64,000 bases of DNA from Arthrobacter sp. MSA 4-2 (GTDB lineage Bacteria > Actinomycetota > Actinomycetes > Actinomycetales > Micrococcaceae): contig NZ_JAEKGC010000011.1 in the NCBI RefSeq assembly GCF_016405885.1, positions 62,001 through 126,000 of the forward strand, in the 5' to 3' direction. Shown here piece after piece: positions 23,726-42,603 of this stretch (the stretch's first letter is position 1; the number at the start of each line of letters is the position of its first letter). The notes beneath the pieces were generated by a model. The model was not told the DNA's origin, searched no databases, and saw only the letters and a list, made by a program, of their open reading frames with translations. Made by a program: the position numbers and the translations under genes.

Positions 23726-24943
23726 TCAGGTGAGGGCGGCGCTGGCCGCCTCGATGGCCTCCGGCGAGAGGACGTGGGCGATCGCCATGACCGCGGCACC
23801 GAGCACACCGGCGCGCTGACCGGCGATGGAGGGCACCACCCGCAGGTGTTCGGTGGCCAGCGGCAGGGACCTCCGGTACACCACCTCCCGGATTCCGGCC
23901 AGCAGGTGCTCCCCTGCCTGCGCGAGGCTGCCGCCGATGACGATGACCGAGGGGTTGGTCAGGTTCACGCAGGTCGCCAGGACGTCCCCGATGTCCCGGC
24001 CGGCCTGCCGGATCACCTGGATGGCGGTGCTGTCCCCGGACCGGACCAGCCGGATGACGTCCGCGCTGGAGGAGAGCGTCAGCCCGGTCTCGGCGGTGAG
24101 GGCCGCGGCGAGCGCGGGCCAGCCGGCCAGTGCCTCGAGACAGCCGGTATTGCCGCAGCGGCACCAGACCTCCCCGCCGCGGGGCACCCGGACGTGGCCG
24201 AGGTCCCCGGCGGTGCCCTGGGCTCCACGCTGAAGGGAGCCGCTTGAAATAATGCCGGCCCCGATCCCGGTGGCCACCTTGATGAACATGAACTCGGTGA
24301 TGTCGGGCCAGTGGAACCGCTGCTCCCCCAGGGCCATGATGTTCACGTCGTTGTCCACGAGCACCGGAACGGAATAGCTCCGCTGTACGAGGGCGGGGAC
24401 ATCGATGCGGTCCCATCCGGGCATGATCGGCGGGTTCATGGGCCGGCCCGTCTCGTGCTCGACCGGCCCCGGGAGCCCGATGCCGATGGCGGCGAGCTCG
24501 GCGACGCTGCGGCCGGCGCGCGTGAGGAGGGCCCCGATGGTCTCAGTGAGCCAGCCCAGGACGCGCTCCGGCCCGTCGGTGATCGGGAGCTCCGCCGAGT
24601 CGCTCTCGAGCTCGGTGCCGGAGAGGTCGCTGAGGATCACCCGGGCGTGGGTGGCACCGAGGTCAGCGCCGATCACCACGCGCGCCCCGGGGTTCAGGGC
24701 AAATAACGACGGCGGACGGCCCCCGGTGGAGGCAGCACCTCCGTACGGGGCGACGAGGCCGAGCCGAATGAGGGTGTCAACGCGCGAGGCGACGGTGGAG
24801 CGGGCGAGGCCGGTCAGCTGTGCCAGTTCGGCCCGGGTGCGCGGCTGCCCGTCCCGGAGGAGCTGGAACACTTCGCTCGCCCCCGGTGCGGGAACCGTTG
24901 ACGGGCGGGCTCCCGTCCATGGAAGCGCTGGAAAAGATGACAC
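23726..24943 (-). CDS. ROK-family transcriptional regulator
   Basis: 405-residue NagC/XylR-type repressor. An N-terminal winged helix (RTRAELAQLTGLARSTVASRVDTLIRLGLV) is followed by a ROK domain with GADLGATHARVILSD, DNDVNIMALGEQ, GTGIGAGIISSG and the zinc motif CRCGNTGCLE. It diverges from a sugar ABC/catabolic operon and is its likely sugar-responsive repressor. The GTG start has no ribosome site and lies 6 nt from a TTTACT -10 element, which suggests a leaderless transcript. Confidence 0.9.
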   Translation of the reverse strand: MSSFPALPWTGARPSTVPAPGASEVFQLLRDGQPRTRAELAQLTGLARSTVASRVDTLIRLGLVAPYGGAASTGGRPPSLFALNPGARVVIGADLGATHARVILSDLSGTELESDSAELPITDGPERVLGWLTETIGALLTRAGRSVAELAAIGIGLPGPVEHETGRPMNPPIMPGWDRIDVPALVQRSYSVPVLVDNDVNIMALGEQRFHWPDITEFMFIKVATGIGAGIISSGSLQRGAQGTAGDLGHVRVPRGGEVWCRCGNTGCLEALAGWPALAAALTAETGLTLSSSADVIRLVRSGDSTAIQVIRQAGRDIGDVLATCVNLTNPSVIVIGGSLAQAGEHLLAGIREVVYRRSLPLATEHLRVVPSIAGQRAGVLGAAVMAIAHVLSPEAIEAASAALT

Positions 24944-25049: not shown

Positions 25050-25057
25050 GTGTGTTC

Positions 25058-26566
25058 ATGAATGGGAACGTCCAACCGCCGGTGCTCCGCGTGACCGGCC
25101 TCGCCAAGGCCTTCTTCGGGGTGCCGGTGCTCCAGGAGGTGGGCCTCGAGCTGCGCGCCGGGGAAGTCCACGGTCTCGTCGGCGAGAACGGGGCCGGCAA
25201 GTCGACGCTGATGAAACTGCTGGCCGGGGTCTACCAGCGCGACGCCGGAACCATCGAGATCGACGGGGAGCCGGTGGAGTTCCACCACCCCACCCAGGCC
25301 CACCTCGCGGGCCTGTCCACGGTGTTCCAGGAGTTCAACCTGCTTCCCGACCGCACCGTGGCGGAGAACATCTACCTGGGCCGGGAGCCGCGCCGGGGCC
25401 TCCTCGTCGACACGAAGGCGATGAACCTCAGGACGGCCGAACTGCTCGACCAGCTCGGCATCGGCAACATCCGGCCCACCGCGGCGGTCAGCTCCCTGTC
25501 GGTGGCCCAGCAGCAGATCGTCGAGATCGCCAAGGCCGTCAGCTACGACGCCCGCATCATCTCCATGGACGAACCCACCGCAGCCCTCGCCGGCGCGGAG
25601 GTCGAACTCCTCTACGCCATCGTGCGCCGCCTGAAGGAACGCGGAACGGCCATCCTCTATGTCTCCCACCGGCTCAAGGAGATTTTCGATCTCTGCGACA
25701 CCATCACGGTGCTCAAGGACGGGCGGATCGTCGGTACCCAGCCGGCCGCCGAACTGAACGACGCCTCCCTCGTGCGCATGATGGTCGGCCGTCCCATCTC
25801 GGCCTACTACCCGGAGGAACACCCGGGCACCACCGCAGGACGGACCCTGCTGACCATCGAGGGAGGCGGCAACCACCAGCTCGATGCCATCGACCTCGAC
25901 CTGCGGGCCGGGGAGATCGTCGGGGTGGCCGGACTGCAGGGCTCGGGGCGCACCGAGCTGGTCGAGGCGATCTTCGGGGCAGCACCCTTCACCCGCGGCC
26001 GCGTGGAGCTGGACGGCCGGCCCTTCACGGCCACCTCCCCGCGCGAGGCCATTCGGCGGCGCATCGCCCTGATCACCGAGGACCGCAAGGCGCAGGGGCT
26101 GAGCCTGAACCAGTCAATCCTCAACAACGCCCTGGGCGTCATCCGGTCGGTCTTTCCGCGGCGCACCCCCGAGGCGCGCGCGGCGACGCCCGGCATCCTG
26201 TCCTCCCTTGAGGTCGTCGCGCGGGACCTGGACCAGGAGGTGCAGTACCTCTCGGGCGGCAACCAGCAGAAGGTGGTGCTGGCCAAGTGGCTGGCCATCG
26301 ACCCGCTGGTGGTCCTCCTCGACGAACCGACCCGCGGCATCGACGTCGGGGCCAAGCTCGCCGTCTACAACCTCATGCGGGCCCTCGCCGCCGAGGGCCG
26401 GGCGCTGCTCATGGTCTCCAGCGAACTGCCCGAACTGCTGGGCATGAGCAGCCGCATCGTGGTGATGCGCGACGGCAGGATCGCCGGTGGGCTGCCGGTG
26501 GGCGCAAGCGAAGAACAGGTCCTCCAGCTGGCCACCGGGGCCCGGAACGAAACGGCACTTCCATGA
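25058..26566 (+). CDS. CUT2 sugar ABC transporter, ATPase with two ABC domains
   Basis: 502-residue RbsA/MglA-type subunit that powers sugar import. Domain 1 has Walker A GENGAGKST, signature LSVAQQQ and Walker B IISMDEPTAAL. Domain 2 has the usual degenerate P-loop GLQGSGRTEL, signature LSGGNQQK and LLDEPTRGID. GTG 25052 and ATG 25058 are both possible and neither has a ribosome site. It is the first gene of a seven-gene operon, divergent from the ROK repressor, and overlaps the next gene by ATGA. Confidence 0.93.
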   Translation: MNGNVQPPVLRVTGLAKAFFGVPVLQEVGLELRAGEVHGLVGENGAGKSTLMKLLAGVYQRDAGTIEIDGEPVEFHHPTQAHLAGLSTVFQEFNLLPDRTVAENIYLGREPRRGLLVDTKAMNLRTAELLDQLGIGNIRPTAAVSSLSVAQQQIVEIAKAVSYDARIISMDEPTAALAGAEVELLYAIVRRLKERGTAILYVSHRLKEIFDLCDTITVLKDGRIVGTQPAAELNDASLVRMMVGRPISAYYPEEHPGTTAGRTLLTIEGGGNHQLDAIDLDLRAGEIVGVAGLQGSGRTELVEAIFGAAPFTRGRVELDGRPFTATSPREAIRRRIALITEDRKAQGLSLNQSILNNALGVIRSVFPRRTPEARAATPGILSSLEVVARDLDQEVQYLSGGNQQKVVLAKWLAIDPLVVLLDEPTRGIDVGAKLAVYNLMRALAAEGRALLMVSSELPELLGMSSRIVVMRDGRIAGGLPVGASEEQVLQLATGARNETALP

Positions 26567-27579
26567 AAATCACCTCCCGGCTCACCTCGACCCACATCGT
26601 CTACCTCGTGGTGCTGCTGACCGTCATCGCCGGCACCATCCTCGTGGCCGCCGCCGGGCGCAGCTTCTTCAGCGCCGGCAACATCTCCTCGATCCTCACG
26701 GGCACCAGCGTCCTCGGCTTCATCGCCATCGGCCAGACCCTGGTGATCCTCGTGGGAAGCCTCGATCTCTCCGTGCCCTACGTGGTGAGCCTGAGCAGCC
26801 TGCTCGCGGCGGGGATCATGGCCAACCAGCCGGCCAATATCCTCCCCGGCGTCCTCGTGGCGCTCGCGGTGGCTGCGGTCATCGGCCTCATCAACGGGCT
26901 CGTGGTCTCCGGACTGAAGGTCCACGGCTTCGTCGCCACCCTGGGCACGGGCCTGATCATCAGCGGATATCTGGCCACCAATTACAAGGGCAGCTCCGGG
27001 CAGGCCCCGCTGTCCTTCCGGCTGGTGGGCGCCACCGGCCTCGGACCGGTGCCCATCTCCACCCTGATCATGCTCGCCTGCGCCGCCGTCGTCCTGCTGG
27101 TGCTCGACCGCACCCGGCTCGGGCACTCGATGTACGCCGTAGGGGGCGACATCAACGTGGCCCGCATGTCGGGCATCCGCACCAGCACCCCCATCATCGC
27201 CGCCCACATCATCTGCTCCGTCCTGGCCGGCATGGCGGGACTGCTGCTGGCGGCGCGGCTCGGGGTGGGCAGCCCCACCATCGGTAGCCAGGGCGGCTAC
27301 GACCTGCTCTCCATCGCCGCCGTCGTCCTCGGCGGCACCCTGCTGGCCGGTGGAAAAGGATCACTCGTGGGAACCCTCGGAGGCGTCCTGATCTTCGCGA
27401 TGATCGACAACATCATGAGCGTTCTGCAGATCAACCCCTTCCTCAAGGATGTGGTGCGCGGCATCGTCATCGTCGCCGCCGTCGCGGTCTACGCCGGACG
27501 CCGCGTGGTCAGCCGGACCGCCCGCTTCGACGACACCCCGCAGGAAACCGTGTCGACCCGGCAGGAAGTCGGCGCATGA
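26563..27579 (+). CDS. CUT2 sugar ABC transporter permease 1
   Basis: 338 residues, about ten membrane helices (BPD_transp_2/RbsC family). FIAIGQTLVILVGSLDLSVPYVVSLSSLLAAGI carries the family's DLSVG-like block and NGLVVSGLKVHGFVATLGT the conserved loop. The start ATG overlaps the ATPase stop (ATGA) and the end overlaps permease 2 the same way, so translation is coupled. Two different permeases suggest a heterodimeric channel. Confidence 0.92.
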   Translation: MKITSRLTSTHIVYLVVLLTVIAGTILVAAAGRSFFSAGNISSILTGTSVLGFIAIGQTLVILVGSLDLSVPYVVSLSSLLAAGIMANQPANILPGVLVALAVAAVIGLINGLVVSGLKVHGFVATLGTGLIISGYLATNYKGSSGQAPLSFRLVGATGLGPVPISTLIMLACAAVVLLVLDRTRLGHSMYAVGGDINVARMSGIRTSTPIIAAHIICSVLAGMAGLLLAARLGVGSPTIGSQGGYDLLSIAAVVLGGTLLAGGKGSLVGTLGGVLIFAMIDNIMSVLQINPFLKDVVRGIVIVAAVAVYAGRRVVSRTARFDDTPQETVSTRQEVGA

Positions 27580-28673
27580 GCACCCTCACCCCGGACCGGA
27601 AGGCCGAACTGCGGCGCGACCGCTCACCCCGGAAGGACCGCCTGCTGCGCGGCATGCGTACCCCCGGAGGCGCGGTGTTCATCCTGCTGCTGGCCCTGCT
27701 CGCCGCCGTCATCTTCGTCAACCCCTCCTTCGGCGAGCCCGGCTCCCTGATCCGCTTCATCGGCCGCACCGCACCGATCGCGATCGCCGCGATCGGACAG
27801 TACTTCGTCATCGTCTCGGGCGAATTCGACCTCTCCATGGGATCGGTGGTGACGGCCCAGGTCATCATCGCCGGGAACCTCATCGGACAGGACGACGCGA
27901 AGGTCCTTCCCGTGCTGCTCCTGATGCTGGTCTTCGGCGCGCTCATCGGCCTGATCAACGGCCTCGTGACGACGCTCCTGAAGATCCCAAGCTTCATCGT
28001 CACCCTCGGCATGATGCTCGCCCTGCTGGGCCTGGTGCTCTACTGGACCGGCGGCGCCGCCACGGGAAACCCCGCAGACACCTTCCGCCAGATCGGCCGC
28101 GGGGGCATCGAGAACATTCCGGTGCTCGAGATCCTGCCCTACCCGGTACTGATCCTCCTGGCCATCGCCGCCGGGGCCTTCTGGCTGATGCGCCGGCCCT
28201 ACGGGCGCACCCTGATCGCCGTCGGCGACAACGCCCGCGCCGCGGCCCTCACCGGGGCCCGCGTGTGGTGGATCCGCACCCGCGCCTTCATCCTCTCCTC
28301 GCTCGCCGCCACGGTCGCCGGCATCATCCTGGTCGGCTACGCCGGGGTGCACCCCTCGGTAGGGCGCGGCTACGAGTTCACGGCCATCACCGCCGTCGTC
28401 CTCGGCGGGGTGGTCCTGGGCGGCGGCCGCGGCTGGGTGCTCTCCGCGGCCGCAGGGGCCTTCGCCCTGGAGATGCTCTTCACGCTGCTGAACTTCGCCG
28501 GCGTCGCATCGACCTGGCGGGACACCGTCCAGGGCATCATCATCGTCGCCGCCGTCGCGGCCGGCGCACGCACCTGGGAGCGCCGCCGGCGCGGCGCGTC
28601 CAGCGCCACCCACGACAAGCAGACACCAATTGCACAGCCGCCCGCAGTGGGCACCAATGAGGGAGGAAAATGA
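27576..28673 (+). CDS. CUT2 sugar ABC transporter permease 2
   Basis: 365 residues, RbsC family. GEFDLSMGSVVTAQVIIAGN is the conserved block and NGLVTTLLKIPSFIVTLGMMLAL the cytoplasmic-loop region. It has a charged N-terminal extension of about 30 residues and a hydrophilic C-tail. Coupled to the genes on both sides by 4-nt or shorter overlaps. It pairs with permease 1. Confidence 0.92.
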   Translation: MSTLTPDRKAELRRDRSPRKDRLLRGMRTPGGAVFILLLALLAAVIFVNPSFGEPGSLIRFIGRTAPIAIAAIGQYFVIVSGEFDLSMGSVVTAQVIIAGNLIGQDDAKVLPVLLLMLVFGALIGLINGLVTTLLKIPSFIVTLGMMLALLGLVLYWTGGAATGNPADTFRQIGRGGIENIPVLEILPYPVLILLAIAAGAFWLMRRPYGRTLIAVGDNARAAALTGARVWWIRTRAFILSSLAATVAGIILVGYAGVHPSVGRGYEFTAITAVVLGGVVLGGGRGWVLSAAAGAFALEMLFTLLNFAGVASTWRDTVQGIIIVAAVAAGARTWERRRRGASSATHDKQTPIAQPPAVGTNEGGK

Positions 28674-29905
28674 TGCGCCGAAGCATCCAATCAAAGGTCA
28701 CGGCGGTCGCAGCGGCAGCGTTGCTCGCCCTGACCGCGTGCACCACCGATCCATCCATCGAGAACCCGCCGGCCGCCGAGACCGAAGGCGGGGAGGCGGC
28801 GGCCACCCCTGCCGAGGAGGGCGGCGACGAATGGTTCGACCAGGCGGCGTTCGATGAGCAGTCCGAGCAGCGCTCGGCCAGCTTCACCGGCGACCCGGAG
28901 CAGCCGTGGCTCCAGTACCTCGAGGGGGAGATGACCGACACCTCCGAGTTCGCGTCCGAGGGCGCCAAGAAGGTGTGCTTCGCCAACGCGTCGATCTCCA
29001 ACCCGTGGCGCCAGACCGGCTGGATCACCATGAACCAGCAGCTCGAGGTGCTCGTGGAGCAGGGGGTGATCTCCGAGATGGAGACCCGGGACGCGCAGGA
29101 CGACGACAACACCCAGATCGCCGACATCGACTACTTCATCGCGGAGGGCGACTGCGACGCGTTCATCATCTCGCCCAACTCCACCGCCGCCATGACCCCG
29201 GCCGTCGAGCGGGCCTGTGAGACCGGGAAGCCCGTGATCGTCTTCGACCGCGGCGTCGAGACCGACTGCGCCACCACCTTCATCCACCCGATCGGCGGTT
29301 TCGCCTGGGGCATCGACACCGCCGAATTCCTTATCGACAACCTCGAGGAGGGCGACAAGGTCGTGGCCCTGCGGATCCTCCCCGGCGTCGACGTGCTCGA
29401 GCAGCGCTGGGCGGCGGCGGAGAAGATCTTCGAGGAGAACGGCATCGAGGCGACCGACTACTTCACCGGGGCCGACCCGACCGAGATCAAGAAGATCATC
29501 TCGGATGAGCTGGCGACCGGCGACGTGCAGGGCGTGTGGATGGACGCCGGCGACGGCGCCGTCGCGGCCATCGAAGCCTTCGAGGACGCCGGCAAGGACT
29601 ACCCGGTCATGACCGGGGAGGACGAGATGAGCTTCCTGCGCAAGTGGGAGGAGACGGGGCTGACCGGACTCGCGCCCGTCTACTCCAACTTCCAGTGGCG
29701 CACCCCGCTGCTGGCCGTCGAGAAGATCTTCGCCGGCGAGGAAGTGCCCAAGGAGTGGGTGCTCCCGCAGACCCCCATCCCCGAAGAGGAACGGGCCGAC
29801 TTCCTTGCCTCGAACGAGGGCATGCCGGACGGCCACTACGCCAAGTTCGGCGGCACCGACCTCCCGGGCTACCCCGAGGTGTGGCAGGAACGCCAGATCC
29901 CGTAA
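28673..29905 (+). CDS. Sugar ABC transporter substrate-binding lipoprotein
   Basis: 410-residue exported lipoprotein: signal helix VTAVAAAALLALTAC with the lipobox Cys, an acidic 45-residue linker, then a periplasmic-binding-protein type I fold (AFIISPNSTAAMTPAVERACETGKPVIVFDRGVETD). It is longer than classical RbsB (about 300 residues). ATG 28673 lies 6 nt after GGGAGG; ATG 28670 is directly upstream and closer. It is last in the transporter group but followed by the catabolic genes 33 nt on. Confidence 0.9.
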   Translation: MRRSIQSKVTAVAAAALLALTACTTDPSIENPPAAETEGGEAAATPAEEGGDEWFDQAAFDEQSEQRSASFTGDPEQPWLQYLEGEMTDTSEFASEGAKKVCFANASISNPWRQTGWITMNQQLEVLVEQGVISEMETRDAQDDDNTQIADIDYFIAEGDCDAFIISPNSTAAMTPAVERACETGKPVIVFDRGVETDCATTFIHPIGGFAWGIDTAEFLIDNLEEGDKVVALRILPGVDVLEQRWAAAEKIFEENGIEATDYFTGADPTEIKKIISDELATGDVQGVWMDAGDGAVAAIEAFEDAGKDYPVMTGEDEMSFLRKWEETGLTGLAPVYSNFQWRTPLLAVEKIFAGEEVPKEWVLPQTPIPEEERADFLASNEGMPDGHYAKFGGTDLPGYPEVWQERQIP

Positions 29906-29938: not shown

Positions 29939-30796
29939 ATGCACCGCAGCATCGGCGTCAACACCTGGGTGTGGGAATCCCCGCTCACCGACGCCACCCT
30001 GCCTCCGCTGCTTGCCCGCATCGCCGCCATGGGCTTCGATGCGGTCGAGCTGCCCCTCGAGAACGCCGGGGACCTCACCGCGGAGGTGGTGCGGGCCGCC
30101 CTGGGCGGGCTGCAGCCCTTCGTGGTCGGGGCGATGGCCCCGGGCCGGGACCTCGTCTCGGCCGGGGAGCCCGTGATCGCCGAAACCCAGGACTACCTCC
30201 GCGAGTGCATCGCCCTGGCCCGGGACATCGGTGCCGGGGCGGTGTGCGGGCCGTTCTACTCCTCCACCGGCCGTGTCTGGCGGATGGATGAGGCGGCGCG
30301 GCGGGACGCCTACGCCCAGCTGCGCCGGAACCTGGCCCCGCTGGCCGAGGAGGCCGTGGAGGCCGGCGTCGTGCTGGGAATCGAACCCCTCAACCGGTAC
30401 GAGACCTCCCTGCTCAACACCACCGCCCAGGCGCTGGAGGCGCTCGGGCCGCTGCTCGGCCGGGGCGTGGGCCTGGCCCTGGACACCTACCATCTGGGCA
30501 TTGAGGAGCGCTCCTCGGCGGACGCCATCCGCGCCGCCGGGGAGCACCTGGTGCACCTGCAGGTCTGCGGCAACGACCGGGGCGCCCCGGGCGGTGACCA
30601 GACCGACTGGACCGGCATCTTCACGGCCCTCGACGCCATCGGCTACCGGGGCGCGGTGAACATCGAAAGCTTTACGGCGGACAACGCCAGCATCGCCACG
30701 GCCGCCTCCATCTGGCGCCCGCTTGCGGAGTCACAGGACGCCCTGGCCCGGGACGGACTGCGGTTCCTGCGCTCGGTCCCCGCCGCCGCCCTCTAA
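29939..30796 (+). CDS. Sugar isomerase/epimerase-family TIM barrel 1
   Basis: 285-residue AP-endonuclease-2/xylose-isomerase-like TIM barrel related to D-tagatose/D-psicose 3-epimerases. Metal-site residues are visible in GIEPLNRYET (Glu), ALDTYHLG (Asp), HLQVCGNDRG (His) and NIESF (Glu). The start has AGGAGGCAGG 8 nt upstream. It precedes a Gfo/Idh/MocA dehydrogenase and a second TIM barrel, so besides epimerisation it might carry out elimination or hydration of a keto-sugar, as reported for enzymes of this fold. Confidence 0.88.
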   Translation: MHRSIGVNTWVWESPLTDATLPPLLARIAAMGFDAVELPLENAGDLTAEVVRAALGGLQPFVVGAMAPGRDLVSAGEPVIAETQDYLRECIALARDIGAGAVCGPFYSSTGRVWRMDEAARRDAYAQLRRNLAPLAEEAVEAGVVLGIEPLNRYETSLLNTTAQALEALGPLLGRGVGLALDTYHLGIEERSSADAIRAAGEHLVHLQVCGNDRGAPGGDQTDWTGIFTALDAIGYRGAVNIESFTADNASIATAASIWRPLAESQDALARDGLRFLRSVPAAAL

Positions 30797-30808
30797 GGAG
30801 ATCCCTAC

Positions 30809-31981
30809 ATGACCACCACCGTTCCTGCACCCGCCCCTTCCCCGTCCGACGTTTCGGCGGACCCCCTGGGGGTGGCGGTCCTCGGCTATTCCTTCATGGG
30901 CAAGGCCCACTCCAACGCGTGGCGCAATGTGAACGCCTTCTACCCCTCGCCGCGGGTCGCCCAGAAGGTGCTGGTGGGCCGGGATCCGGCGCAGGTGCGG
31001 GAGGCCGCGCGGCAGTTCGGCTGGGAGGAGAGCGCCACCGACTGGCGCTCCGTCCTTGAGCGGGACGACATCGCCATCGTTGACATCTGCACTCCCGGGC
31101 ACCTCCACGCCGAGCTCGCCATCGCCGCCCTGGAAGCGGGCAAGCACGTCCTCGTGGAGAAGCCGCTGGCGAACTCCGTGCCGGAGGCCGCGCTGATGGC
31201 GGCGACCGCGGTGGAGGCCCGCTCCCGCGGCGTGCAGTCGATGGTCGCCTTCAACTACCGCCGGCTGCCGGCGCTCGCCCTGGCCCGTAAGCTCATCGCC
31301 GAAGGCCGGCTCGGGGAGGTCAGGCAGGTGCGCCTGAGCTACCTTCAGGACTGGCTTTCGGACGAGGGCGCCCCGATGTCCTGGCGCCTGCGCAGGGAAA
31401 CCGCCGGCTCCGGCGCCCTCGGCGACCTCGCCTCCCACGCCGTCGACCAGCTGCTGTTCCTCCTCGGGACGCCCGTCGTCTCGGTGTCAGGAACCGTGAA
31501 CACCTTCGTTTCGACGCGGGAGGGCGGTCACGGACCGGAACCGGTCACCGTCGACGACGCGGCCTGGGCGACGCTGCGGCTGGGCAGCGGCGCCGTGGCC
31601 AGCCTCGAGGTCTCCCGGGTCGCCACCGGCCGGAAGAACGCGCTCCAGATCGAGGTGTTCGGCTCCCGCGGCGGGCTGCGGTTCGACCTGGAGCGGCTCA
31701 ACGAGCTGAGGTTCTTCGACGCCGGAGCCCCGGCCGAGGCCCAGGGGTACAGCACGATCCTCGCCACGGAGCCCTCCCACCCCTACCTCGAAGCGTGGTG
31801 GCCGCCCGGCCACCTACTAGGCTGGGATTCGACGTTCACCAGCCAGGCCGCGGACCTGCTCCGGGCGATCGAGTCCGGGACGACGCCGTCCCCCTCGTTC
31901 GAGGACGGGCTCGCGGTGCAGCGGGTGCTCGAGGCCCTGCAGGTCAGCGCGGCCCAGGGCAGCCGGGCGGTGGACCTGTGA
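30809..31981 (+). CDS. Gfo/Idh/MocA-family oxidoreductase
   Basis: 390-residue NAD(P)-dependent sugar dehydrogenase. The Rossmann motif is VLGYSFMGKAHS, the catalytic Lys is in EKPLAN, and the second conserved block is GSGALGDLASHAVDQLLFLLG with the usual His. AAGGAG lies 7 nt before the ATG. The size and the 'MGKAHS' opening recall sugar C3-dehydrogenases such as levoglucosan dehydrogenase, but no alignment was possible. It sits between two TIM-barrel isomerases in the same operon. Confidence 0.9.
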   Translation: MTTTVPAPAPSPSDVSADPLGVAVLGYSFMGKAHSNAWRNVNAFYPSPRVAQKVLVGRDPAQVREAARQFGWEESATDWRSVLERDDIAIVDICTPGHLHAELAIAALEAGKHVLVEKPLANSVPEAALMAATAVEARSRGVQSMVAFNYRRLPALALARKLIAEGRLGEVRQVRLSYLQDWLSDEGAPMSWRLRRETAGSGALGDLASHAVDQLLFLLGTPVVSVSGTVNTFVSTREGGHGPEPVTVDDAAWATLRLGSGAVASLEVSRVATGRKNALQIEVFGSRGGLRFDLERLNELRFFDAGAPAEAQGYSTILATEPSHPYLEAWWPPGHLLGWDSTFTSQAADLLRAIESGTTPSPSFEDGLAVQRVLEALQVSAAQGSRAVDL

Positions 31982-32030
31982 CGCCGGAGGTCGGGCCCCA
32001 CGCCCGCTTCCCGAACCGAGGAGATGCTTA

Positions 32031-33029
32031 GTGGGACGAAACTACACGCTGTTCACGGGCCAGTGGGCCGACCTGCCCTTCGAGAAGGTGGCCGAACTGG
32101 CCGGCCAGTGGGGGTACGACGGGCTGGAGATCGCCGTCTCCGGGGACCACCTCGACGCCTGGCGGTGGGACGACGACGCCTACATCCAGGACCGGCTGGA
32201 CATCCTCGAACGCAACGGGCTGAAGGTCTGGGCCATTTCGAACCACCTCAAGGGCCAGGCGGTGTGCGATGACCCGATCGACTTCCGGCACGAGGCGATC
32301 GTCGGGCCCAGGGTCTGGGGCGACGGCGACCCCGAGGGCGTGCGCTCCCGGGCCGCCGAGGAGATGAAGCTGACGGCGCGCCTGGCGCAGCGACTCGGCG
32401 TGAAGACCGTCGTGGGTTTCACCGGCTCCTCCATCTGGCAGTACGTCGCGATGTTCCCGCCGGTCTCCGCCGAGGTGATCGAGGCCGGGTACCGGGACTT
32501 CGCCGACCGGTGGAACCCCGTCCTCGATGTGTTCGACGAGTGCGGCGTCCGCTTCGCGCACGAGGTGCATCCGTCGGAGATCGCCTACGACTACTGGAGC
32601 ACCCAGCGCGCCCTGGAGGCCATCGGGCACCGCGAGGCGTTCGGCCTGAACTGGGATCCGAGCCACTTCATGTGGCAGCAGATTGATCCCGTGGGGTTCA
32701 TCTCCGACTTCGCCGACCGGATCTACCACGTGGACTGCAAGGACACAAAGATGCGGATGGGCGGCGGGCGCAACGGCATCCTCTCCTCGCACCTGCCCTG
32801 GGGGGACCAGCGCCGGGGCTGGGACTTCGTCTCGACCGGCCGCGGGGACGTGCCCTGGGAGGCAAGCTTCCGGGCTCTGACGGCCATCGGCTACGACGGG
32901 CCGATCTCGGTGGAGTGGGAAGACGCGGGCATGGACCGCCTGCAGGGCGCCCCTGAGGCGCTGGCCTTCCTGAAGTCCTTCGACTTCGCCCCGTCCGGCG
33001 CCTCCTTCGACGCCGCCTTCAAGCAGTAG
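32031..33029 (+). CDS. Sugar isomerase/epimerase-family TIM barrel 2
   Basis: 332-residue AP-endonuclease-2 fold protein, only distantly like the first one. Likely metal ligands are in HEVHPSEIAYD, NWDPSHFMWQ, YHVDCKDTKM and VEWEDAGMD. It contains a conserved-looking GRNGILSSHLPWGDQRRGWDFVSTGRGD loop. The GTG start has GAGGAG about 6 nt upstream. It is the last gene of the operon, followed by a palindromic repeat. Homologues usually accompany Gfo/Idh/MocA dehydrogenases. Confidence 0.88.
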   Translation: MGRNYTLFTGQWADLPFEKVAELAGQWGYDGLEIAVSGDHLDAWRWDDDAYIQDRLDILERNGLKVWAISNHLKGQAVCDDPIDFRHEAIVGPRVWGDGDPEGVRSRAAEEMKLTARLAQRLGVKTVVGFTGSSIWQYVAMFPPVSAEVIEAGYRDFADRWNPVLDVFDECGVRFAHEVHPSEIAYDYWSTQRALEAIGHREAFGLNWDPSHFMWQQIDPVGFISDFADRIYHVDCKDTKMRMGGGRNGILSSHLPWGDQRRGWDFVSTGRGDVPWEASFRALTAIGYDGPISVEWEDAGMDRLQGAPEALAFLKSFDFAPSGASFDAAFKQ

Positions 33030-33115: not shown

Positions 33116-34867
33116 CTACCGTCTGGGGAGATTGCGGAAATTGCTGCGGGCCATGCTGACGGCTTCGCCCGCCCCTCCGTTGAGGACCACCTTGGACATC
33201 GCCGTCGCGAAACCCACGACCTGGTCCCGGGTGATTTTGGGCGGGATGGACAAGGCCCGCGGGTCGGTGATCAGCTCCACGAGCGCGGGGCCGGGATGGG
33301 CGAACGCCTCGCGGTAGGCATCTTTGATCCCTGCGGGGTCGGTGACCCGGGCCGCGTGGAAGCCCATCGCGCGGGCCACCTCGGCATAGTTGATGTCCGG
33401 CACGTCCACGCCGAAATCGGGGAGGCCGTCCACGAGCATCTCGAGTTTGACCATCCCCAGGGTCGAATTGTTGAAGACGACAACCTTGACCGGGAGCCGG
33501 GAGGCCACGGCGGTGAGCAGGTCCCCCAGCAGCATGGACAGCCCGCCGTCGCCGGACACCGAGACCACCTGGCGCCCGGGGTAGGCCGCCTGGGCGCCGA
33601 GGGCATGCGGCAGGGCGTTGGCCATTGAGCCGTGGAGATAGGAACCGATCAGCCGGCGCGTCCCCAGGGGGTTGATGTAACGGGCGGTCCAGACATTGCA
33701 CATGCCCGTGTCGGCGGTGAAGACGGCATCGGGGGCGGCTGCTTCATCCAGGAGCGAGGCAGCGTACTCCGGGTGGATGGGCCGGATCTTTTCCACATCG
33801 TGGGTGTAGGCGCCGAGGGCCTTGTTCATCAGGCGGTCGTGCTTCTTCAGCATCTTCTCGAGGAACTGCCTGTCGGTCTTGGGGACGACCAGCGCCTCGA
33901 GTGCCCGCAGCGTGGGCCGAACTTCGGCGTGGACGGCGACGTCGACGTCGGTCCTGCGGCCAAGGTGGTCCGGCGCGCTGTCGACCTGCGCCGTGCGGAC
34001 GCCGTCGGGCAGGAACTGGTCGTAGGGGAAGTCGGTTCCCAGCAGGAGCAGGAGGTCCGCCCCCTCGATCCCCGCGGCGGCGGCCCCGTAGCCGAGCAGG
34101 CCCGTCATGCCGATGTCGAGCGGATTGTCGTACTGGATGAAGTCCTTGCCGCGCAGCGTATGCCCGATCGGGGCGCCGATCTTCTCCGCAAGGGCGATCA
34201 CGTCGTCGTGGGCGCCCTCGACGCCGGCTCCGCAGAAAATGGCGACGGTTCCGGCGTCATTGATCGCTGCGGCAAGGGCGCGGACCGCATCGGGGTGCGG
34301 AACGAGCGTGCCGCGGGTGAACGGGGCACACAGCGGGGTGTCCGCCACCGCGTCGTGCTCGGCAAGGTCCCCGGGAAGCACCACGACGCCCACACCGCGC
34401 AGACCCACGGCGTGCTGGATGGCGCTCTGCATGACCCGGGGGGCCTGCGCCGCGGTGCTGATGAGTTCGGAGTACACGGAACATTCGCTGAAGAGCCGGT
34501 CGGGGTGGGTCTCCTGGAAGTACCCGGTCCCGATCTGCCGGCTGGGGATGTGCGAGGCGATGGCCAGGACGGGGGCGCCGCTCCGCTGCGCATCGAAGAG
34601 CCCATTGATCAGGTGCAGGTTGCCCGGCCCCGCCGAACCGGCGCAGACGGCCAGCCGGCCCGTGAGTTGGGCTTCGGCCGCTGCGGCAAAGGCGGCAGAT
34701 TCCTCATGGCGGACGTGGATCCAGTCGATACCCCCCTTGGCGCTACCTCCGGTCTGCCGGACGGCATCCACGATGGAGTTGAGGCTGTCCCCCACGATGC
34801 CGTAGATGCGCTGCACCCCTGCGGATTGGAGCTGTTGAACGAGCTGGTGAGCAAGATTCTTGGCCAT
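33116..34867 (-). CDS. poxB: Thiamine-dependent pyruvate oxidase/dehydrogenase
   Basis: 583-residue ThDP flavoenzyme that converts pyruvate to acetate and CO2, passing electrons to quinone. The N-terminal PYR domain has GIVGDSLNSIVDAVRQ and catalytic Glu in RHEESAAFAA; the central FAD/DHS-like domain has FCGAGVEGAH; the PP domain has GDGGLSMLLGDLLTAV...NN as ThDP/Mg site. The C-terminus is similar to PoxB's membrane-binding tail region. Single gene flanked by palindromic repeats on both sides. The start has AGGAGA about 6 nt upstream (GGTCTCCTGG on the plus strand). Confidence 0.9.
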   Translation of the reverse strand: MAKNLAHQLVQQLQSAGVQRIYGIVGDSLNSIVDAVRQTGGSAKGGIDWIHVRHEESAAFAAAAEAQLTGRLAVCAGSAGPGNLHLINGLFDAQRSGAPVLAIASHIPSRQIGTGYFQETHPDRLFSECSVYSELISTAAQAPRVMQSAIQHAVGLRGVGVVVLPGDLAEHDAVADTPLCAPFTRGTLVPHPDAVRALAAAINDAGTVAIFCGAGVEGAHDDVIALAEKIGAPIGHTLRGKDFIQYDNPLDIGMTGLLGYGAAAAGIEGADLLLLLGTDFPYDQFLPDGVRTAQVDSAPDHLGRRTDVDVAVHAEVRPTLRALEALVVPKTDRQFLEKMLKKHDRLMNKALGAYTHDVEKIRPIHPEYAASLLDEAAAPDAVFTADTGMCNVWTARYINPLGTRRLIGSYLHGSMANALPHALGAQAAYPGRQVVSVSGDGGLSMLLGDLLTAVASRLPVKVVVFNNSTLGMVKLEMLVDGLPDFGVDVPDINYAEVARAMGFHAARVTDPAGIKDAYREAFAHPGPALVELITDPRALSIPPKITRDQVVGFATAMSKVVLNGGAGEAVSMARSNFRNLPRR

Positions 34868-36526: not shown

Positions 36527-37306
36527 ATGGGATCACTTGAGGGCAAGGTAGCACTCATCACCGGCGCCGCTTCCGGAATGGGCAAGGCGATGGCGGTCGG
36601 GTTCGCTGGAGAAGGCGCACATGTCGTCATCGCCGACCTGAACCTGGACGGGGCGAAGGAGGCCGCCGAGGCCATCCGCGCCACGGGAGGATCGGCCTCG
36701 GCCGTCTCCCTCAACGTCGCAGATCCCCAGCAGTCCAAGTCCGTCACCGAAGACATCGTGAACGAGCACGGCCGGATCGACATCCTGGTCAACAACGCCG
36801 GCATCGGCCTGATCAAGCCGCTCTGGGAGACCACCCCCGAAGAGTGGGACCGCATCATGAATGTCAACGTCAAGGGCCTGTTCTTCCTGACCCAGGCGGT
36901 GTGTGAACCGATGCGCAAGCAGCGCAGCGGCAAGATCATCAATATGGCCTCCATCGCCGGCCGCCGCGGCGAGGCACTCGTCGCCGCCTACTGCGCCTCC
37001 AAGGCCACCGTCATCTCCATCACCCAGTCCACCGCCATGGCCATGGCCGAGTACGGCGTCAATGTCAACGCAATGGCACCGGGCATCGTCGACACCCCCT
37101 ACTGGAAAGAAGTCGACAAGCAGTTCGGCGAGATCACTGGAAAGGCCGAGGGCGAGACGTTCAAGAGCGCCGCCGACAACATCCCGCTGGGCCGCACCTC
37201 CGTTCCCGAGGACGTCGTGCCGCTGGCGATCTTCCTCGCCGGCCCGGGCTCCGACTACATCACGGCCCAGACCTACAACGTCGAGGGCGGAATGGTCATG
37301 AGCTGA
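36527..37306 (+). CDS. SDR oxidoreductase, polyol (sorbitol/galactitol) dehydrogenase-like
   Basis: 259-residue classical SDR: TGAASGMGKA cofactor motif, NNAG, catalytic Ser in NMASIAGRRGEALV, and YCASK. The block KIINMASxAGRRGEALVAxYCAxKA is very close to SmoS-type L-iditol/sorbitol dehydrogenases as I recall them. It probably oxidises a polyol or sugar with NAD. GAGGAG lies 7 nt upstream of the ATG. It is the first gene of a six-gene sugar uptake/oxidation operon. Confidence 0.9.
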   Translation: MGSLEGKVALITGAASGMGKAMAVGFAGEGAHVVIADLNLDGAKEAAEAIRATGGSASAVSLNVADPQQSKSVTEDIVNEHGRIDILVNNAGIGLIKPLWETTPEEWDRIMNVNVKGLFFLTQAVCEPMRKQRSGKIINMASIAGRRGEALVAAYCASKATVISITQSTAMAMAEYGVNVNAMAPGIVDTPYWKEVDKQFGEITGKAEGETFKSAADNIPLGRTSVPEDVVPLAIFLAGPGSDYITAQTYNVEGGMVMS

Positions 37307-37352
37307 GCCTTCCGGCTCAACCCCATCCCTACCTGTTCCCGAAAGGACAGTC

Positions 37353-38834
37353 GTGAGCTTTCCCCTCCTGAGCGAGAACTCCCTGCTTGGATCAACACCC
37401 GCCATGCTCGTCGGCGGACGGTGGGTCTCCACCGACGAAACCCGGCCTGTCGACAACCCGGCCACCGGCGAGGCGCTCACCGAAGTGCCCGAGGCCGGCC
37501 CGGAACACCTTGAGGAAACGCTCGCCGTCGCCTACAAGGCCCAGAAGGACTGGGGCCGGCGCACCTACGCGGAGCGCGCCGACGTCCTGGCCGCCGTCAT
37601 CGACGCCGTCGAGGAGCACGCCGAGGAACTGGCGCAGATCGTCGTTGCCGAACAGGGCAAGACGATCACCGAGGCGCGCGGGGAAATCGGCGGGGTCAAG
37701 GCCTTCTTCGACTTCGCGCTCACCCAGAAGTACCGCAACGTCGGCGAGGTGGTCGCCTCCTCGGCGGCCAACCGCCAGCTGATGGTGCGCGAGGAACCCA
37801 TCGGCATCGTCGCGGCGATCATCCCCTGGAACTTCCCGGCGGCGATTTTCGCCCGGAAGGTCGCCCCCGCCCTGATGGCAGGCAACGCCATCGTGCTCAA
37901 ACCCAGCGAGCTGACCCCGCTGTCGGCCCTCGCCATGGCGAAGGTGTGCGAAAAGGCGGGCGTCCCTGCCGGCCTGGTGAGCGTCCTCACCGGCGGGGGC
38001 CGGAGCATCGGCAAGGCCCTCGTCGAACACCCGCTGGTGGGCATGGTCACCGTGACCGGGTCGACCCGCGCCGGCCGGGAGATCCTGGCCCAGGCGGCGC
38101 ACAAGGTCATTCCGGTGTCCCTCGAACTGGGCGGCAAGGCCCCCGTAATCGTCTTCGATGACGCCGATCTCGACCTGGCGGTCCAGGAGGCGTTCGAATC
38201 GCGGTTCTGGAACTGCGGGCAGGTCTGCACCTGCAACGAGCGCACCTACGTCCAGCGGGGGGTGCACGACGAGTTCGTGCGGCGCCTCCTGGAGAAGGTG
38301 AACGGGCTCGTGGTGGGCGACCCGCTGGACGAGGGCAGCCAGATCGGCCCCAAGGTCTCCCAGGCCGAATGGGACAAGGTCAAGGCCTTCGTCGACGGCG
38401 CGGTCGACGCCGGTGCGCGGCTCGAGACCGGCGGCGGCCGGCCCGAGGACCTCAAGGACGACAAGGGGTTCTGGTTCGCCCCCACCGTCCTGACCGGTGT
38501 CAGCAATGAAATGGACATCGTGCAGCAGGAAGTGTTCGGCCCGGTGCTCCCGATCATCCCCTTCGACACCTACGACGAGGTGGTGGAGTTCGCCAACTCG
38601 ACCGACTACGGCCTGACCGCGTACGCCTACACCGAGGACTTCCGGACGGCCCTCTCGCTCACCGAGGACCTCGAGTTCGGCGAGGTGTACATCAACCAGA
38701 CCGGCCCCGAGCAGGTGCAGGGTTTCCACACCGGTTGGAAAATGTCCGGTCTGGGCGGCGACGACGGCCAGCACGGCTTCGAGCGCTACACCCGCAAGAA
38801 AACTGTCTACCTGGACTACCGGCGCGGCACCTAG
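37353..38834 (+). CDS. Aldehyde dehydrogenase, AldA-like
   Basis: 493-residue NAD-dependent ALDH. Seen: PWNFPAAIFARKVAPALMAGN, TGSTRAGR, catalytic Glu in LELGGKAP and catalytic Cys in NCGQVCTCNER. The C-terminal QGFHTGWKMSGLGGDDGQHG strongly recalls E. coli lactaldehyde/glycolaldehyde dehydrogenase AldA. It would oxidise a hydroxy-aldehyde made from the imported sugar. GTG start with AAAGGA 7 nt upstream. It follows the SDR by 46 nt and precedes the ABC binding protein. Confidence 0.9.
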   Translation: MSFPLLSENSLLGSTPAMLVGGRWVSTDETRPVDNPATGEALTEVPEAGPEHLEETLAVAYKAQKDWGRRTYAERADVLAAVIDAVEEHAEELAQIVVAEQGKTITEARGEIGGVKAFFDFALTQKYRNVGEVVASSAANRQLMVREEPIGIVAAIIPWNFPAAIFARKVAPALMAGNAIVLKPSELTPLSALAMAKVCEKAGVPAGLVSVLTGGGRSIGKALVEHPLVGMVTVTGSTRAGREILAQAAHKVIPVSLELGGKAPVIVFDDADLDLAVQEAFESRFWNCGQVCTCNERTYVQRGVHDEFVRRLLEKVNGLVVGDPLDEGSQIGPKVSQAEWDKVKAFVDGAVDAGARLETGGGRPEDLKDDKGFWFAPTVLTGVSNEMDIVQQEVFGPVLPIIPFDTYDEVVEFANSTDYGLTAYAYTEDFRTALSLTEDLEFGEVYINQTGPEQVQGFHTGWKMSGLGGDDGQHGFERYTRKKTVYLDYRRGT

Positions 38835-38911
38835 CCGCCTCCGCCTTCGAGGCCCCGCCACAGCAGTCGGGGCCGCAGCCGAGCACGAACCTCAACAAGG
38901 AAGTTGGAATC

Positions 38912-39994
38912 ATGAATCTGCACGCCACTCCGATCCTCAAGTCCCTGGCCTGTGCCGCCGTGCTGGGCTTCGCCCTGACCGGCTGCACCAACACGGGAAC
39001 CACCACCGGGGGCTCCGGAGGCGGCTCCGAGACGCCTGAGGGAACTCAGCAGTCCGTCGCCTCCGCCGAAGGCCCCACCTGCTCCATTGAGGACTACGGA
39101 GCCGAGAAGATCGACCTGAAGGACGCCGTCGTCGGATTCTCCCAGTCGGAGAAGGAGGACAACCCCTTCCGCATCGCCGAGACGCAGTCGATCAAGGATG
39201 AAGCGGAGAAGCTGGGGGTGAAGAAGCTGATCACCACCAACGCGCAGTCGACCCTGTCCAAGCAGATCTCCGACATCCAGGACATGATCTCCCAGGGGGC
39301 CCAGGCGCTCATCGTCGCTCCCCTGAACTCCGACGGCCTGGAGCCTGCCCTGCAGGCGGCCCGCGACAAGAACATCCCGGTCATCACCATCGACCGTAAG
39401 GTCAACGCGACCGCCTGCGAGGACTACGTCACCTTCCTGGGCTCGAACTTCGTCGAGCAGGGCAAACGAGCCGCCGACCAGTTGATCGAGGGCACCGGAG
39501 GGGAGGCGAAGGTCGCGATCCTGCTGGGCTCCTCCGGCAACGCCGTGACCACCGACCGGACCAAGGGGTTCAAGGACCAGGTCGCCGCCGAGGCGCCGGG
39601 TATCGAGATCGTGGCCGAGCAGACCGGCGACTTCGCCCGCGACAAGGGCCAGTCGGTCACCGAACAGCTGCTGCAGGCCAACCCGGACATCACCGCGATC
39701 TACGCGGAGAACGACGAGATGGGCCTCGGTGCCCAGGCGGCGATCGTCGCGGCGGGCAAGACACCGGGCGAGGACATCCAGATCTACTCCATCGACGGCA
39801 CCCGGAACGCGGTCGAACAGATCACCGCCGGCTCCTACAACGGCGTCATCGAATCGAACCCCCGCTTCGGGCCGCTGGCCTTCCAGACCCTGGTCGACTT
39901 CATGGACGGCAAGCCGGTGGGGCAGGACATCATCATCGCCGATTCGGAATACGACCCCTCGAACGCTGCCGAGCGGGTGAACTCCGCGTACTGA
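38912..39994 (+). CDS. Sugar-binding lipoprotein, YtfQ/RbsB-like
   Basis: 360-residue lipoprotein with lipobox LTGC after the signal helix LKSLACAAVLGFA, a Gly/Ser linker, then a type I binding-protein fold (VGFSQSEKEDNPFRIAETQSI, ALIVAPLNSDGLEPALQAA, VITIDRKVNA). The wording resembles the galactofuranose-binding protein YtfQ more than RbsB. The frame is open upstream but ATG 38912 begins the signal peptide and has AAGGAAG upstream. Confidence 0.9.
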   Translation: MNLHATPILKSLACAAVLGFALTGCTNTGTTTGGSGGGSETPEGTQQSVASAEGPTCSIEDYGAEKIDLKDAVVGFSQSEKEDNPFRIAETQSIKDEAEKLGVKKLITTNAQSTLSKQISDIQDMISQGAQALIVAPLNSDGLEPALQAARDKNIPVITIDRKVNATACEDYVTFLGSNFVEQGKRAADQLIEGTGGEAKVAILLGSSGNAVTTDRTKGFKDQVAAEAPGIEIVAEQTGDFARDKGQSVTEQLLQANPDITAIYAENDEMGLGAQAAIVAAGKTPGEDIQIYSIDGTRNAVEQITAGSYNGVIESNPRFGPLAFQTLVDFMDGKPVGQDIIIADSEYDPSNAAERVNSAY

Positions 39995-40057
39995 TTCCCC
40001 GGGGGCGGGGCCGCACCGGTCCCGCCCTCCACCACCGTCACACGAAAGGCAGCAAAC

Positions 40058-41638: not shown

Positions 41639-42603
41639 GTACCGTAACGTCCGCTGTCCGCCTGCCGCAGAAGGGATCGGCGCTGGTCTTCCTCCAGCGG
41701 TACGGCGTGTACCTGGCCATTGCGCTGCTCCTGCTGTTCAACCTGTTCTTCACCCCGAACTTCATGACGATCGATAACTTCCGCGTCCAGTTCATCCAGG
41801 TGGTTCCGGTGCTCATCGTGGCCCTCGGCATGGCCCTGGTGATCGGCACGGAGGGAATCGACCTCAGCGTCGGTGCGGTCATGGCGCTCTCCGCGGCGGT
41901 GATCCCCCTCTACATCGGGTACGGCCCGCTGCCGGCGGCGATCCTTGCGGTCCTCGCCGGCTGCCTGATCGGTCTGGCCAACGGCACGATGATCGCGCTC
42001 ATCGGGGTGCAACCGATCGTGGCGACGCTCTCCCTCATGGTCGCCGGGCGCGGCATCGCCCTGCTGGTGGCCGACGAGCAGCTCAAGTCCGTCATCGACC
42101 CGGGCTTCCTGGCCCTGGGCCGTGGAACCATCGCCGGCGTGCCCTACAGCGTCCTGCTCGCCCTGATCCTCGTGGGCCTGGTGGCGGTGCTGGTGAACCG
42201 GACGACCTTCGGCAAGCAGCTGGTCTCCATCGGCGGAAGCCGGCGGGCCGCCGAACTCGCCGGACTGCCGGTGAAGCGCGTGCTGATCACCATCTATATC
42301 CTCGCGGCCGCGCTCGCCTCCATCGCCGGCATCATCCAGACGGCACGGCTCAGCGCCTCGGTGCCCTCAACGGTCGGGAACCTCATTGAGCTTTCGGCGA
42401 TCACCGCCGTCGTGATCGGCGGCACCCCGCTCAGCGGCGGCCAGGTGAAGGTTTTGGGGACCGTCGCCGGCGCCCTGCTCCTTCAGCTCATCGCGGCGTC
42501 GCTGATCAAGCACAATGTGCCCGACGCGTACTCCCAGATCACCCAGGCCGTCATCATCCTCCTCGCGGTCTACCTTCAGCGTGGAAAGGCGGTGCTCAAG
42601 TGA
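41635..42603 (+). CDS. Sugar ABC transporter permease, YtfT-like
   Basis: 322-residue RbsC-family permease with about ten helices, IGTEGIDLSVGAVMALSAAVIPL and GLANGTMIALIGVQPIVATLSLM. The GTG start overlaps the ATPase stop (GTGA) and has AAGGA 6 nt upstream. The end overlaps the second permease by GTGA. Confidence 0.92.
   Translation: MSTVTSAVRLPQKGSALVFLQRYGVYLAIALLLLFNLFFTPNFMTIDNFRVQFIQVVPVLIVALGMALVIGTEGIDLSVGAVMALSAAVIPLYIGYGPLPAAILAVLAGCLIGLANGTMIALIGVQPIVATLSLMVAGRGIALLVADEQLKSVIDPGFLALGRGTIAGVPYSVLLALILVGLVAVLVNRTTFGKQLVSIGGSRRAAELAGLPVKRVLITIYILAAALASIAGIIQTARLSASVPSTVGNLIELSAITAVVIGGTPLSGGQVKVLGTVAGALLLQLIAASLIKHNVPDAYSQITQAVIILLAVYLQRGKAVLK

Follow-up and report, generated by a model that had tools for sequence, protein, structure and literature searches.

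The genome of the soil actinobacterium Arthrobacter sp. MSA 4-2 (Actinomycetales, Micrococcaceae) contains an operon of eight genes, counting a divergent ROK-family regulator gene, in which three enzyme genes sit behind a four-gene sugar importer, an ATP-binding cassette (ABC) transporter of the CUT2 type. In this study, the operon was analysed within a window of 64,000 nucleotides (contig NZ_JAEKGC010000011.1, positions 62,001 to 126,000; coordinates below are those of the window unless a locus is named). The reading that we favour, with roughly an even chance of being correct, is a 3-keto-sugar pathway comprising import, oxidation and reduction at C3 by Gfo, epimerisation by B1 and hydration by B2, and ending at glucose. 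The three enzymes, all encoded on the plus strand, are as follows: B1 (29939-30796; 285 aa), an AP_endonuc_2 barrel with the ketose 3-epimerase fold; Gfo (30809-31981; 390 aa), a Gfo/Idh/MocA oxidoreductase; and B2 (32031-33029; 332 aa), a barrel of the SCO6571 family. An original prediction made from the letters of the window had named these three protein types at 29939-33029. The open reading frames were found exactly as it gave them, and Pfam assigned AP_endonuc_2 to B1 (E 2e-32) and B2 (E 1.6e-41) and GFO_IDH_MocA, together with two C-terminal models, to Gfo. The two barrels, moreover, are as unlike each other as that prediction had held; their best BLASTP alignment covered 108 columns (E 2e-4), and they shared 20% identity in a multiple alignment.

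The gene set is conserved and is not a chance association. Named genomes were scanned with B1, and the best 80 of 354 relatives were retained as loci, which come from Arthrobacter, Kocuria, Nocardioides, Ornithinimicrobium, Serinicoccus, Agrococcus, Aeromicrobium and other taxa. The order B1-Gfo-B2 was kept in 52 of the 80 loci, including three (L068, L071 and L074) in which about 1.9 kb separates Gfo from B2, the B2 of L068 being matched in two pieces. Ten further loci combine B1-B2 with a Gfo that is divergent and lies close to the regulator (in L141 the stretch stops short of the regulator side), seven have Gfo-B2 upstream of the importer, five have importer-B1 with neither Gfo nor B2 within 10 kb, four have B1-Gfo without a full B2, and in the last two Gfo is divergent and B2 is either missing or 7 kb off. 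The importer precedes B1 in all 78 loci that cover that side, and the ROK gene recurs upstream on the opposite strand across the fetched loci. All 80 loci come with B2, which lies inside the fetched stretch in 70 cases and elsewhere in the genome in the other ten (10/10; L075, L087, L090, L094-L096, L100, L103, L108 and L138). In a sample of 198 genomes drawn evenly from the order, B1 (at least 54% identity) was present in 14 genomes, all 14 of which have B2, compared with B2 in 110 of 198 overall (hypergeometric P 1.8e-4, uncorrected for kinship). The nearest named copies are those of the uncultured Arthrobacter AVDCRST_MAG83 (93-99% identity over the seven genes covered) and of A. crusticola (96-99% over eight). 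Among the Nocardioides loci, L100, L103 and L108 lack the operon copy of B2, and each of their genomes carries another copy elsewhere; L103 (approximately 12020-12200) retains the start of B2 and its last 46 or so codons, which reads as a natural internal deletion.

The link to 3-keto-sugar and elimination-hydration chemistry, which the original prediction had drawn, was supported by B2 orthologues in some levoglucosan and C-glycoside-lyase clusters and by a YLQDW motif in Gfo. The nearest solved relative of B2 is SCO6571 (2zds, E 6e-159), which was deposited as a putative DNA-binding protein and released in 2008, followed by AtHYD, the 2-hydroxy-3-keto-glucal hydratase of Agrobacterium (8ro4, E 6e-39 over 312 residues). 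Seven residues (E178, H180, D209, H212, H233, K237 and E295) were kept in all 139 distinct B2 sequences, and B2 and AtHYD have the ExH motif, the DPSH motif and the last Glu in common, but most B2 sequences carry Asp instead of one His of AtHYD. For comparison with levoglucosan operons, a true LgdA was defined as a protein above the NCBI cut-off; such proteins were found in seven Micrococcaceae genomes of 149 searched and in four order-sample genomes of 198, one being shared, which gave ten distinct genomes. The names LgdB1, LgdC and LgdB3 in these loci were assigned by position beside a true LgdA and not by published sequences. An orthologue of B2 (77-83% identity) stands at the levoglucosan operon in four of the seven Micrococcaceae genomes, as the large barrel that is 82-83% identical to B2 in three operons and 77% identical in the fourth. 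Three of these four operons are ordered as sugar-binding protein, ABC component, permease, LgdC, LgdB1, LgdA, a small open reading frame and B2. B2 is not near LgdA in any of the four LgdA-bearing order-sample genomes, one of which is shared with the Micrococcaceae set. Kaur et al. placed an LgdB3 cluster in 71 of 265 LgdA neighbourhoods and proposed, without an assay, that it replaces LgdB2 (PMC10066097). Because orthologues of B2 occur at true levoglucosan operons, B2 is probably LgdB3; it is a putative 2-hydroxy-3-keto-glucal hydratase and possibly also a lyase. An open reading frame of about 110 aa that follows LgdA in levoglucosan operons (L191, 11001-11294; also L192, L193, L195 and L196) is absent from the window operon.

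The PDB matches of Gfo include 4h3v (E 2e-126), the levoglucosan dehydrogenase LGDH (6a3f, E 5e-88) and a scyllo-inositol dehydrogenase (5ya8, E 4e-67). Gfo shares 41% identity with an LgdA orthologue and scored 331 bits on the LgdA model LevoglcsnDh (NF052479), the cut-off of which is 650 bits; no protein in the source genome exceeded that value. A tree of 63 rows was built from the window and 44 chosen loci, a subset of all loci. It contains a c6 clade (9 rows), an LgdA clade (10 rows, 100/99), an LgdC clade (20 rows, 100/97) and a window-type clade (22 rows, 90/97), and also a two-row side group and two flagged long branches. Although the window Gfo groups with LgdA and LgdC, it belongs to neither; it lies outside the LgdA clade and in the window-type clade. 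Members of the LgdC clade are the second Gfo of levoglucosan operons and the Gfos of the C-glycoside clusters of the Novosphingobium plasmid pSA2 and of genome G177. The divergent Gfos of B1 operons (all eight that were placed, from 12 such loci) and the L179 Gfo, from a lyase-type operon, also belong there. The YLQDW motif is common to the LgdA, LgdC and window-type groups and is missing from c6, and the window Gfo carries both this motif and D-x-x-x-H. Window-type and LgdC-type Gfos are exchanged within otherwise similar operons, both among the B1 operons and in the c8-c6 operon L179, which suggests that the window-type Gfo performs the task of LgdC, namely the reduction of 3-keto-glucose. 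Since the window operon holds no other dehydrogenase (none was found among its eight genes in the open reading frame list or with Pfam), Gfo may also catalyse the first oxidation, and it is best regarded as a candidate sugar C3 dehydrogenase and 3-keto-hexose reductase.

Moreover, Gfo and B2 appear to form a unit. In the order sample, 97 of the 98 genomes with a LevoglcsnDh match below the cut-off (E up to 1e-90) have B2, and such a Gfo is adjacent to 79 of 123 full-length B2 genes; the tree covers part of these Gfos, and the count omits B2 fragments (in G194, and the second match of G143) and the four places with a true LgdA. A second, solitary Gfo in the source genome (G000:C11:328285-329385, L150) is 66% identical to the window Gfo and is nearer to the Gfo of c8-type operons. 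Five loci of Microbacterium type (L135, L136, L137, L141 and L144) carry an additional Gfo-like gene on the opposite strand, outside the tree.

In sequence comparison with the PDB, B1 matched the ketose 3-epimerase 7dz5 (E 2.5e-33). An AlphaFold2 model of B1 reached a pLDDT (predicted local distance difference test) of 95, and its best 50 Foldseek matches in the PDB were ketose 3-epimerases throughout (template modelling score 0.83-0.90, 23-30% identity). The residues E149, E155, D182, H185, Q208, R214 and E243 are each invariant in 92 of 92 B1 sequences, in an alignment that omits L131, L015 and L016. All of them except Q208 align with the same residues of 7dz5, where we take them to have their roles in epimerisation; the position aligned with Gln208 is His in 7dz5. 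In profile comparison, B1 matched the E. coli 3-keto-glucoside 4-epimerase YcjR (E 2e-23) and the LgdB1 profile (E 2e-11, at superfamily level), and the YcjR match shows that the fold of B1 also serves 3-keto-pyranosides. No BLASTP similarity was found between B1 and the 273-aa barrel encoded before LgdA (E 1.6). The HxH on the first metal strand, which is H155-P-H157 in 10 of 10 LgdB1 proteins and HNH (within GYHNH) in 8 of 8 c8 barrels, is missing from B1, where Glu149 takes its place in all 92 sequences. In AtOGE, His132 is a ligand and His134 is catalytic (PMC10628242). Unlike those of B1, the first Foldseek matches of an LgdB1 model include IolE, AtHYD and SCO6571. Taken together with the structure model, these features make B1 a candidate epimerase of a keto-sugar intermediate. 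A B1 homologue with 45% identity and His at the position of Gln208 lies on plasmid 2 of the haloarchaeon Halalkalicoccus jeotgali (L166, 4800-13550), beside two more barrels, a sugar dehydrogenase and a sugar ABC transporter; this row is in alignment A1 and was left out of A2, the basis of the structure model.

The original prediction had likened the trio to LgdA, LgdB1 and LgdB2. That the trio corresponds to these three was not supported, as the likeness failed for B1 and for Gfo; B2 has LgdB3-like copies at LgdA operons. Levoglucosan, which had been considered as the substrate, was rejected because Gfo falls below the LgdA cut-off and B1 is not LgdB1, and both levoglucosan and inositol are unlikely substrates.

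The reactions, their order, the double duty of Gfo, the end product and the regulation, as we infer them, would be the following. Under the ROK regulator, the CUT2 transporter would import a small hexose derivative, either an uncommon sugar or a conjugate. Gfo, in an NAD(H)-dependent manner, would oxidise C3 of the imported sugar or glycoside, and B1, as a metal-dependent barrel of the ketose-3-epimerase type, would epimerise the keto-sugar next to the carbonyl to reach the gluco configuration. B2 would then act at 2-hydroxy-3-keto-glucal, which it would hydrate to 3-keto-glucose, and might also carry out the preceding loss of the C1 substituent. The same Gfo would finally reduce 3-keto-glucose to glucose, so that the cycle would be redox neutral, comparable to GH4 chemistry divided among three proteins.

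Several observations weigh against this pathway. That one Gfo serves both redox steps is assumed; two Gfos are present in many levoglucosan operons, and in two Microbacterium B1 loci (L135 and L136) a c6-like dehydrogenase lies just past the regulator. B1 is encoded directly before Gfo, in the manner of LgdB1 and LgdA, and this position would suit an eliminase. Were B1 not the eliminase, B2 would have to both eliminate and hydrate, or the substrate would have to be unsaturated on arrival; the LgdB2 of Bacillus smithii was only partly bifunctional (PMC7676230). The epimerase residues of B1 are common to free-ketose epimerases and YcjR, and hence would not fix the substrate. Furthermore, where AtHYD has a His aligned with the metal ligands of the superfamily, B2 has Asp in 129 of 139 sequences and His in the other 10, and B2 lies away from LgdA in six of the ten genomes with a true LgdA.

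The main alternative, which would keep the pathway of the original prediction and which we consider rather unlikely, is that B1 is a new eliminase built on an epimerase scaffold, which would beta-eliminate the C1 substituent of a 3-keto-glycoside made by Gfo before B2 hydrates and Gfo reduces the product. Metal-assisted abstraction of the C-H beside a ketone is the first half of epimerisation and is common to elimination, so the chemistry speaks for this possibility. The place of B1 behind the importer and directly before Gfo does so as well, although in most levoglucosan operons an LgdC-like Gfo stands between the permease and LgdB1. Other Gfo-B2 operons, moreover, carry an eliminase-type barrel (c8) upstream, and known eliminases (AtOGE and the C-glycoside eliminase) show no sequence relationship to each other and are nevertheless convergent (PMC10628242). 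On the other side, the HxH shared by LgdB1, the c8 barrels and AtOGE is replaced by E149 in all 92 B1 sequences. In addition, six of eight Gfo-B2 operons with a different importer have no further barrel that could be recognised within the 9.5-19.9 kb fetched (the two that have one are L153 and L164), which indicates that a separate eliminase is not always needed. It is improbable, in our estimate, that the substrate is imported already oxidised or unsaturated, as a 3-keto-glycoside, 3-keto-hexose or 2-hydroxy-3-keto-glucal released by other microbes, with B1 fixing the stereochemistry, B2 hydrating and Gfo only reducing. The lack of a second dehydrogenase among the eight genes, the exchange of Gfo with LgdC-type reductases and the existence of a simpler operon that consists of importer, Gfo and B2 would agree with such a scheme; however, LgdA has been suggested by others to run both ways (PMC10066097), so one Gfo may suffice.

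Two further explanations concern free ketoses and inositols. Clear orthology of the trio to the inositol or allulose pathways, which the original prediction had named as grounds for abandoning its proposal, was not found; B1 alone belongs to the allulose/tagatose 3-epimerase fold family. That B1 is a true ketose 3-epimerase acting on an imported rare ketose (allulose, tagatose or ribulose), with Gfo and B2 forming another branch in the same operon, we regard as decidedly improbable. The 50 closest folds are all of this kind, and B1 scored 124 bits on the NCBIfam D-psicose 3-epimerase model (NF051856), but this score is far under the cut-off of 300 bits, Gln208 is invariant where 7dz5 has His, B2 was present in every B1 genome checked, and the operon has no separate kinase gene. 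Least likely, and largely refuted, is an inositol pathway in which Gfo would be an inositol dehydrogenase, B1 an IolI-like inosose isomerase and B2 an IolE-like inosose dehydratase. The same three protein types occur there, 5ya8 is related to Gfo, and B2 scored 39 bits on the IolE model TIGR04379; nevertheless, the cut-off of that model is 290 bits, and B2 occurs in levoglucosan and C-glycoside operons. Moreover, IolD above its cut-off (715 bits) was absent from 8 of 14 B1 genomes, including the source genome (best 207 bits), and present in the other six. The inositol pathway was rejected on the IolE and IolD scores.

Beyond the pathway proposed for the window, a broader reading, which we offer tentatively, is that the Gfo-B2 pair is a general terminal module of non-hydrolytic sugar breakdown in Actinobacteria with interchangeable front ends, and that the window operon is a 3-keto pathway for an epimeric (non-gluco) conjugate. 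The front ends would be LgdB1 eliminases, barrels of the AtOGE/3-keto-glucoside-lyase type, C-glycoside lyases, a bare importer or, in the window, an enzyme of the epimerase fold with an E-D-Q-E site for 3-keto-sugars. B2 would be the shared hydratase/lyase, and the pair would occur in roughly half of the order-sample genomes. The association of B1 is with the importer and not with Gfo-B2, which is what would be expected if the enzyme prepares one specific substrate for a generic terminal module. Besides the levoglucosan operons, two further kinds of neighbourhood link B2 with 3-keto-sugar chemistry. In pSA2 and G177, the C-glycoside lyase beta subunit CGDB, a CarC-like barrel and a lactonase-like protein are followed by B2 and Gfo, with a GMC oxidoreductase nearby, and in G097 CGDB is followed by B2 and a Gfo of the window clade. 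CGDB was found in six of the 198 order-sample genomes, with B2 within 10 kb in two of the six. Several operons, mostly of Micrococcaceae, bring together a c8 barrel (GYHNH), a second Gfo (c6), a further Gfo and B2. The solved matches of c8 include the 3-keto-beta-glucopyranoside-1,2-lyase AL1 (8tcd, E 1e-16) and AtOGE (8bvk, E 2e-15); the labels c6, c8 and CarC-like rest on clustering, PDB matches (for c8 only), the annotation of pSA2 and reading by eye. In the eight operons with a different CUT2 importer, the binding proteins are just 23-28% identical to that of the window. One stretch (L164, G067:C1:350001-369999) unites importer-Gfo-B2 with a c8-like barrel and another importer accompanied by B1, an arrangement in which two front ends share one Gfo-B2 pair.

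Five known systems stand closest to the operon. Like the levoglucosan pathway of Bacillus smithii and Paenarthrobacter (LgdA/LgdB1/LgdB2 or LgdB3/LgdC), the window has a CUT2 importer, a small barrel, a Gfo and a large barrel in the same order; it differs in that B1 is not LgdB1, Gfo belongs to its own clade, a separate LgdC is absent and the regulator is of the ROK family. The Agrobacterium O-glucoside pathway (GlycDH, AtOGE, AtHYD and Gfo) resembles it in the kinship of B2 to AtHYD and in Gfo as last reductase, whereas the window operon has neither the flavin-dependent GlycDH nor an AtOGE-like barrel. In C-glycoside catabolism with lyases of the CarBC/DgpBC type, B2 and an LgdC-clade Gfo adjoin CGDB and CarC-like genes in pSA2 and G177; C-glycoside cleavage by the window operon was rejected, because the source genome gave no match to CGDB (PF19906). 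The E. coli ycj cluster (YcjQ, YcjR and YcjS; epimerisation of 3-keto-gulosides and glucosides) likewise combines 3-dehydrogenases, an epimerase barrel and an ABC importer, and both B1 and YcjR carry the EPLNRY and YHxxIEE motifs. However, the C-terminal part of B1 has no counterpart in YcjR, which carries His in place of Gln208, and the ycj cluster contains phosphorylases and no annotated B2-like gene. The D-tagatose, D-allulose and L-ribulose 3-epimerases resemble B1 in fold and in the six aligned residues, and differ from it in overall identity, in Gln208 and in the context of 3-keto-sugar genes in which B1 stands.

In the titles and abstract openings of open-licence literature, the levoglucosan, O-glucoside and C-glycoside systems are described and this operon is not named, which is weak evidence of absence. 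In the same literature LgdB3 was found only in PMC10066097, and the titles and abstract openings concerning SCO6569-6572 state no function. The present analysis offers a testable function for the SCO6571 family, which is represented in the PDB by a putative DNA-binding protein and encoded in 110 of the 198 order-sample genomes, and the similarity found here would identify this family with the LgdB3 of levoglucosan operons. A second suggestion is that soil actinobacteria commonly break down sugars by oxidation, elimination, hydration and reduction in a modular manner, with exchangeable enzymes at the front end, and the operon points to a possible new epimerase specificity of use for rare-sugar work.

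The dedicated importer and ROK regulator that the original prediction had seen beside the trio are supported by Pfam. The regulator (23726-24943, minus strand) is a winged helix-turn-helix ROK protein (ROK E 6e-60; HTH_IclR at residues 24-64) that diverges from the operon. The importer, encoded on the plus strand, is of the ribose/arabinose type. It consists of an ATPase (25052-26566) with two ABC_tran domains in Pfam, which scored 506 bits on the NCBIfam AraG model, below the cut-off of 689; two permeases (26557-27579, BPD_transp_2 E 2e-36; 27576-28673, BPD_transp_2 E 4e-38); and a sugar-binding protein (28670-29905; Peripla_BP_4 E 4e-27) with a lipobox LTAC recognised by eye. The top PDB match of the binding protein is 4pe6 (E 1e-18), and its remaining matches include ribose-type binding proteins; these PDB relatives name no ligand. 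From the ATPase gene to B2, the intergenic gaps are -10, -4, -4, 33, 12 and 49 bp, and given this tight spacing and the common direction of the genes, a single transcription unit is likely.

The source genome comprises 3.59 Mb in 35 contigs, and other genes of possible interest lie near the operon. A neighbouring thiamine pyrophosphate enzyme (33116-34867) was considered as IolD and rejected; it is PoxB (NF005114, 996 bits, cut-off 893). Further on, at 36527-42603, a separate run of an SDR-family protein, an aldehyde dehydrogenase, a sugar-binding protein, a CUT2-type ATPase and a permease was recognised by eye, and among the 80 loci only A. crusticola has such an importer at a matching distance. 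Just upstream of the window (G000:C2:52932-60000, L149), an IolO/psicose-epimerase-like barrel, a Zn-dependent dehydrogenase, ABC permease-like genes and a further Gfo were found, and this group, which resembles YcjQ/YcjR/YcjS, is a possible second rare-sugar cluster.

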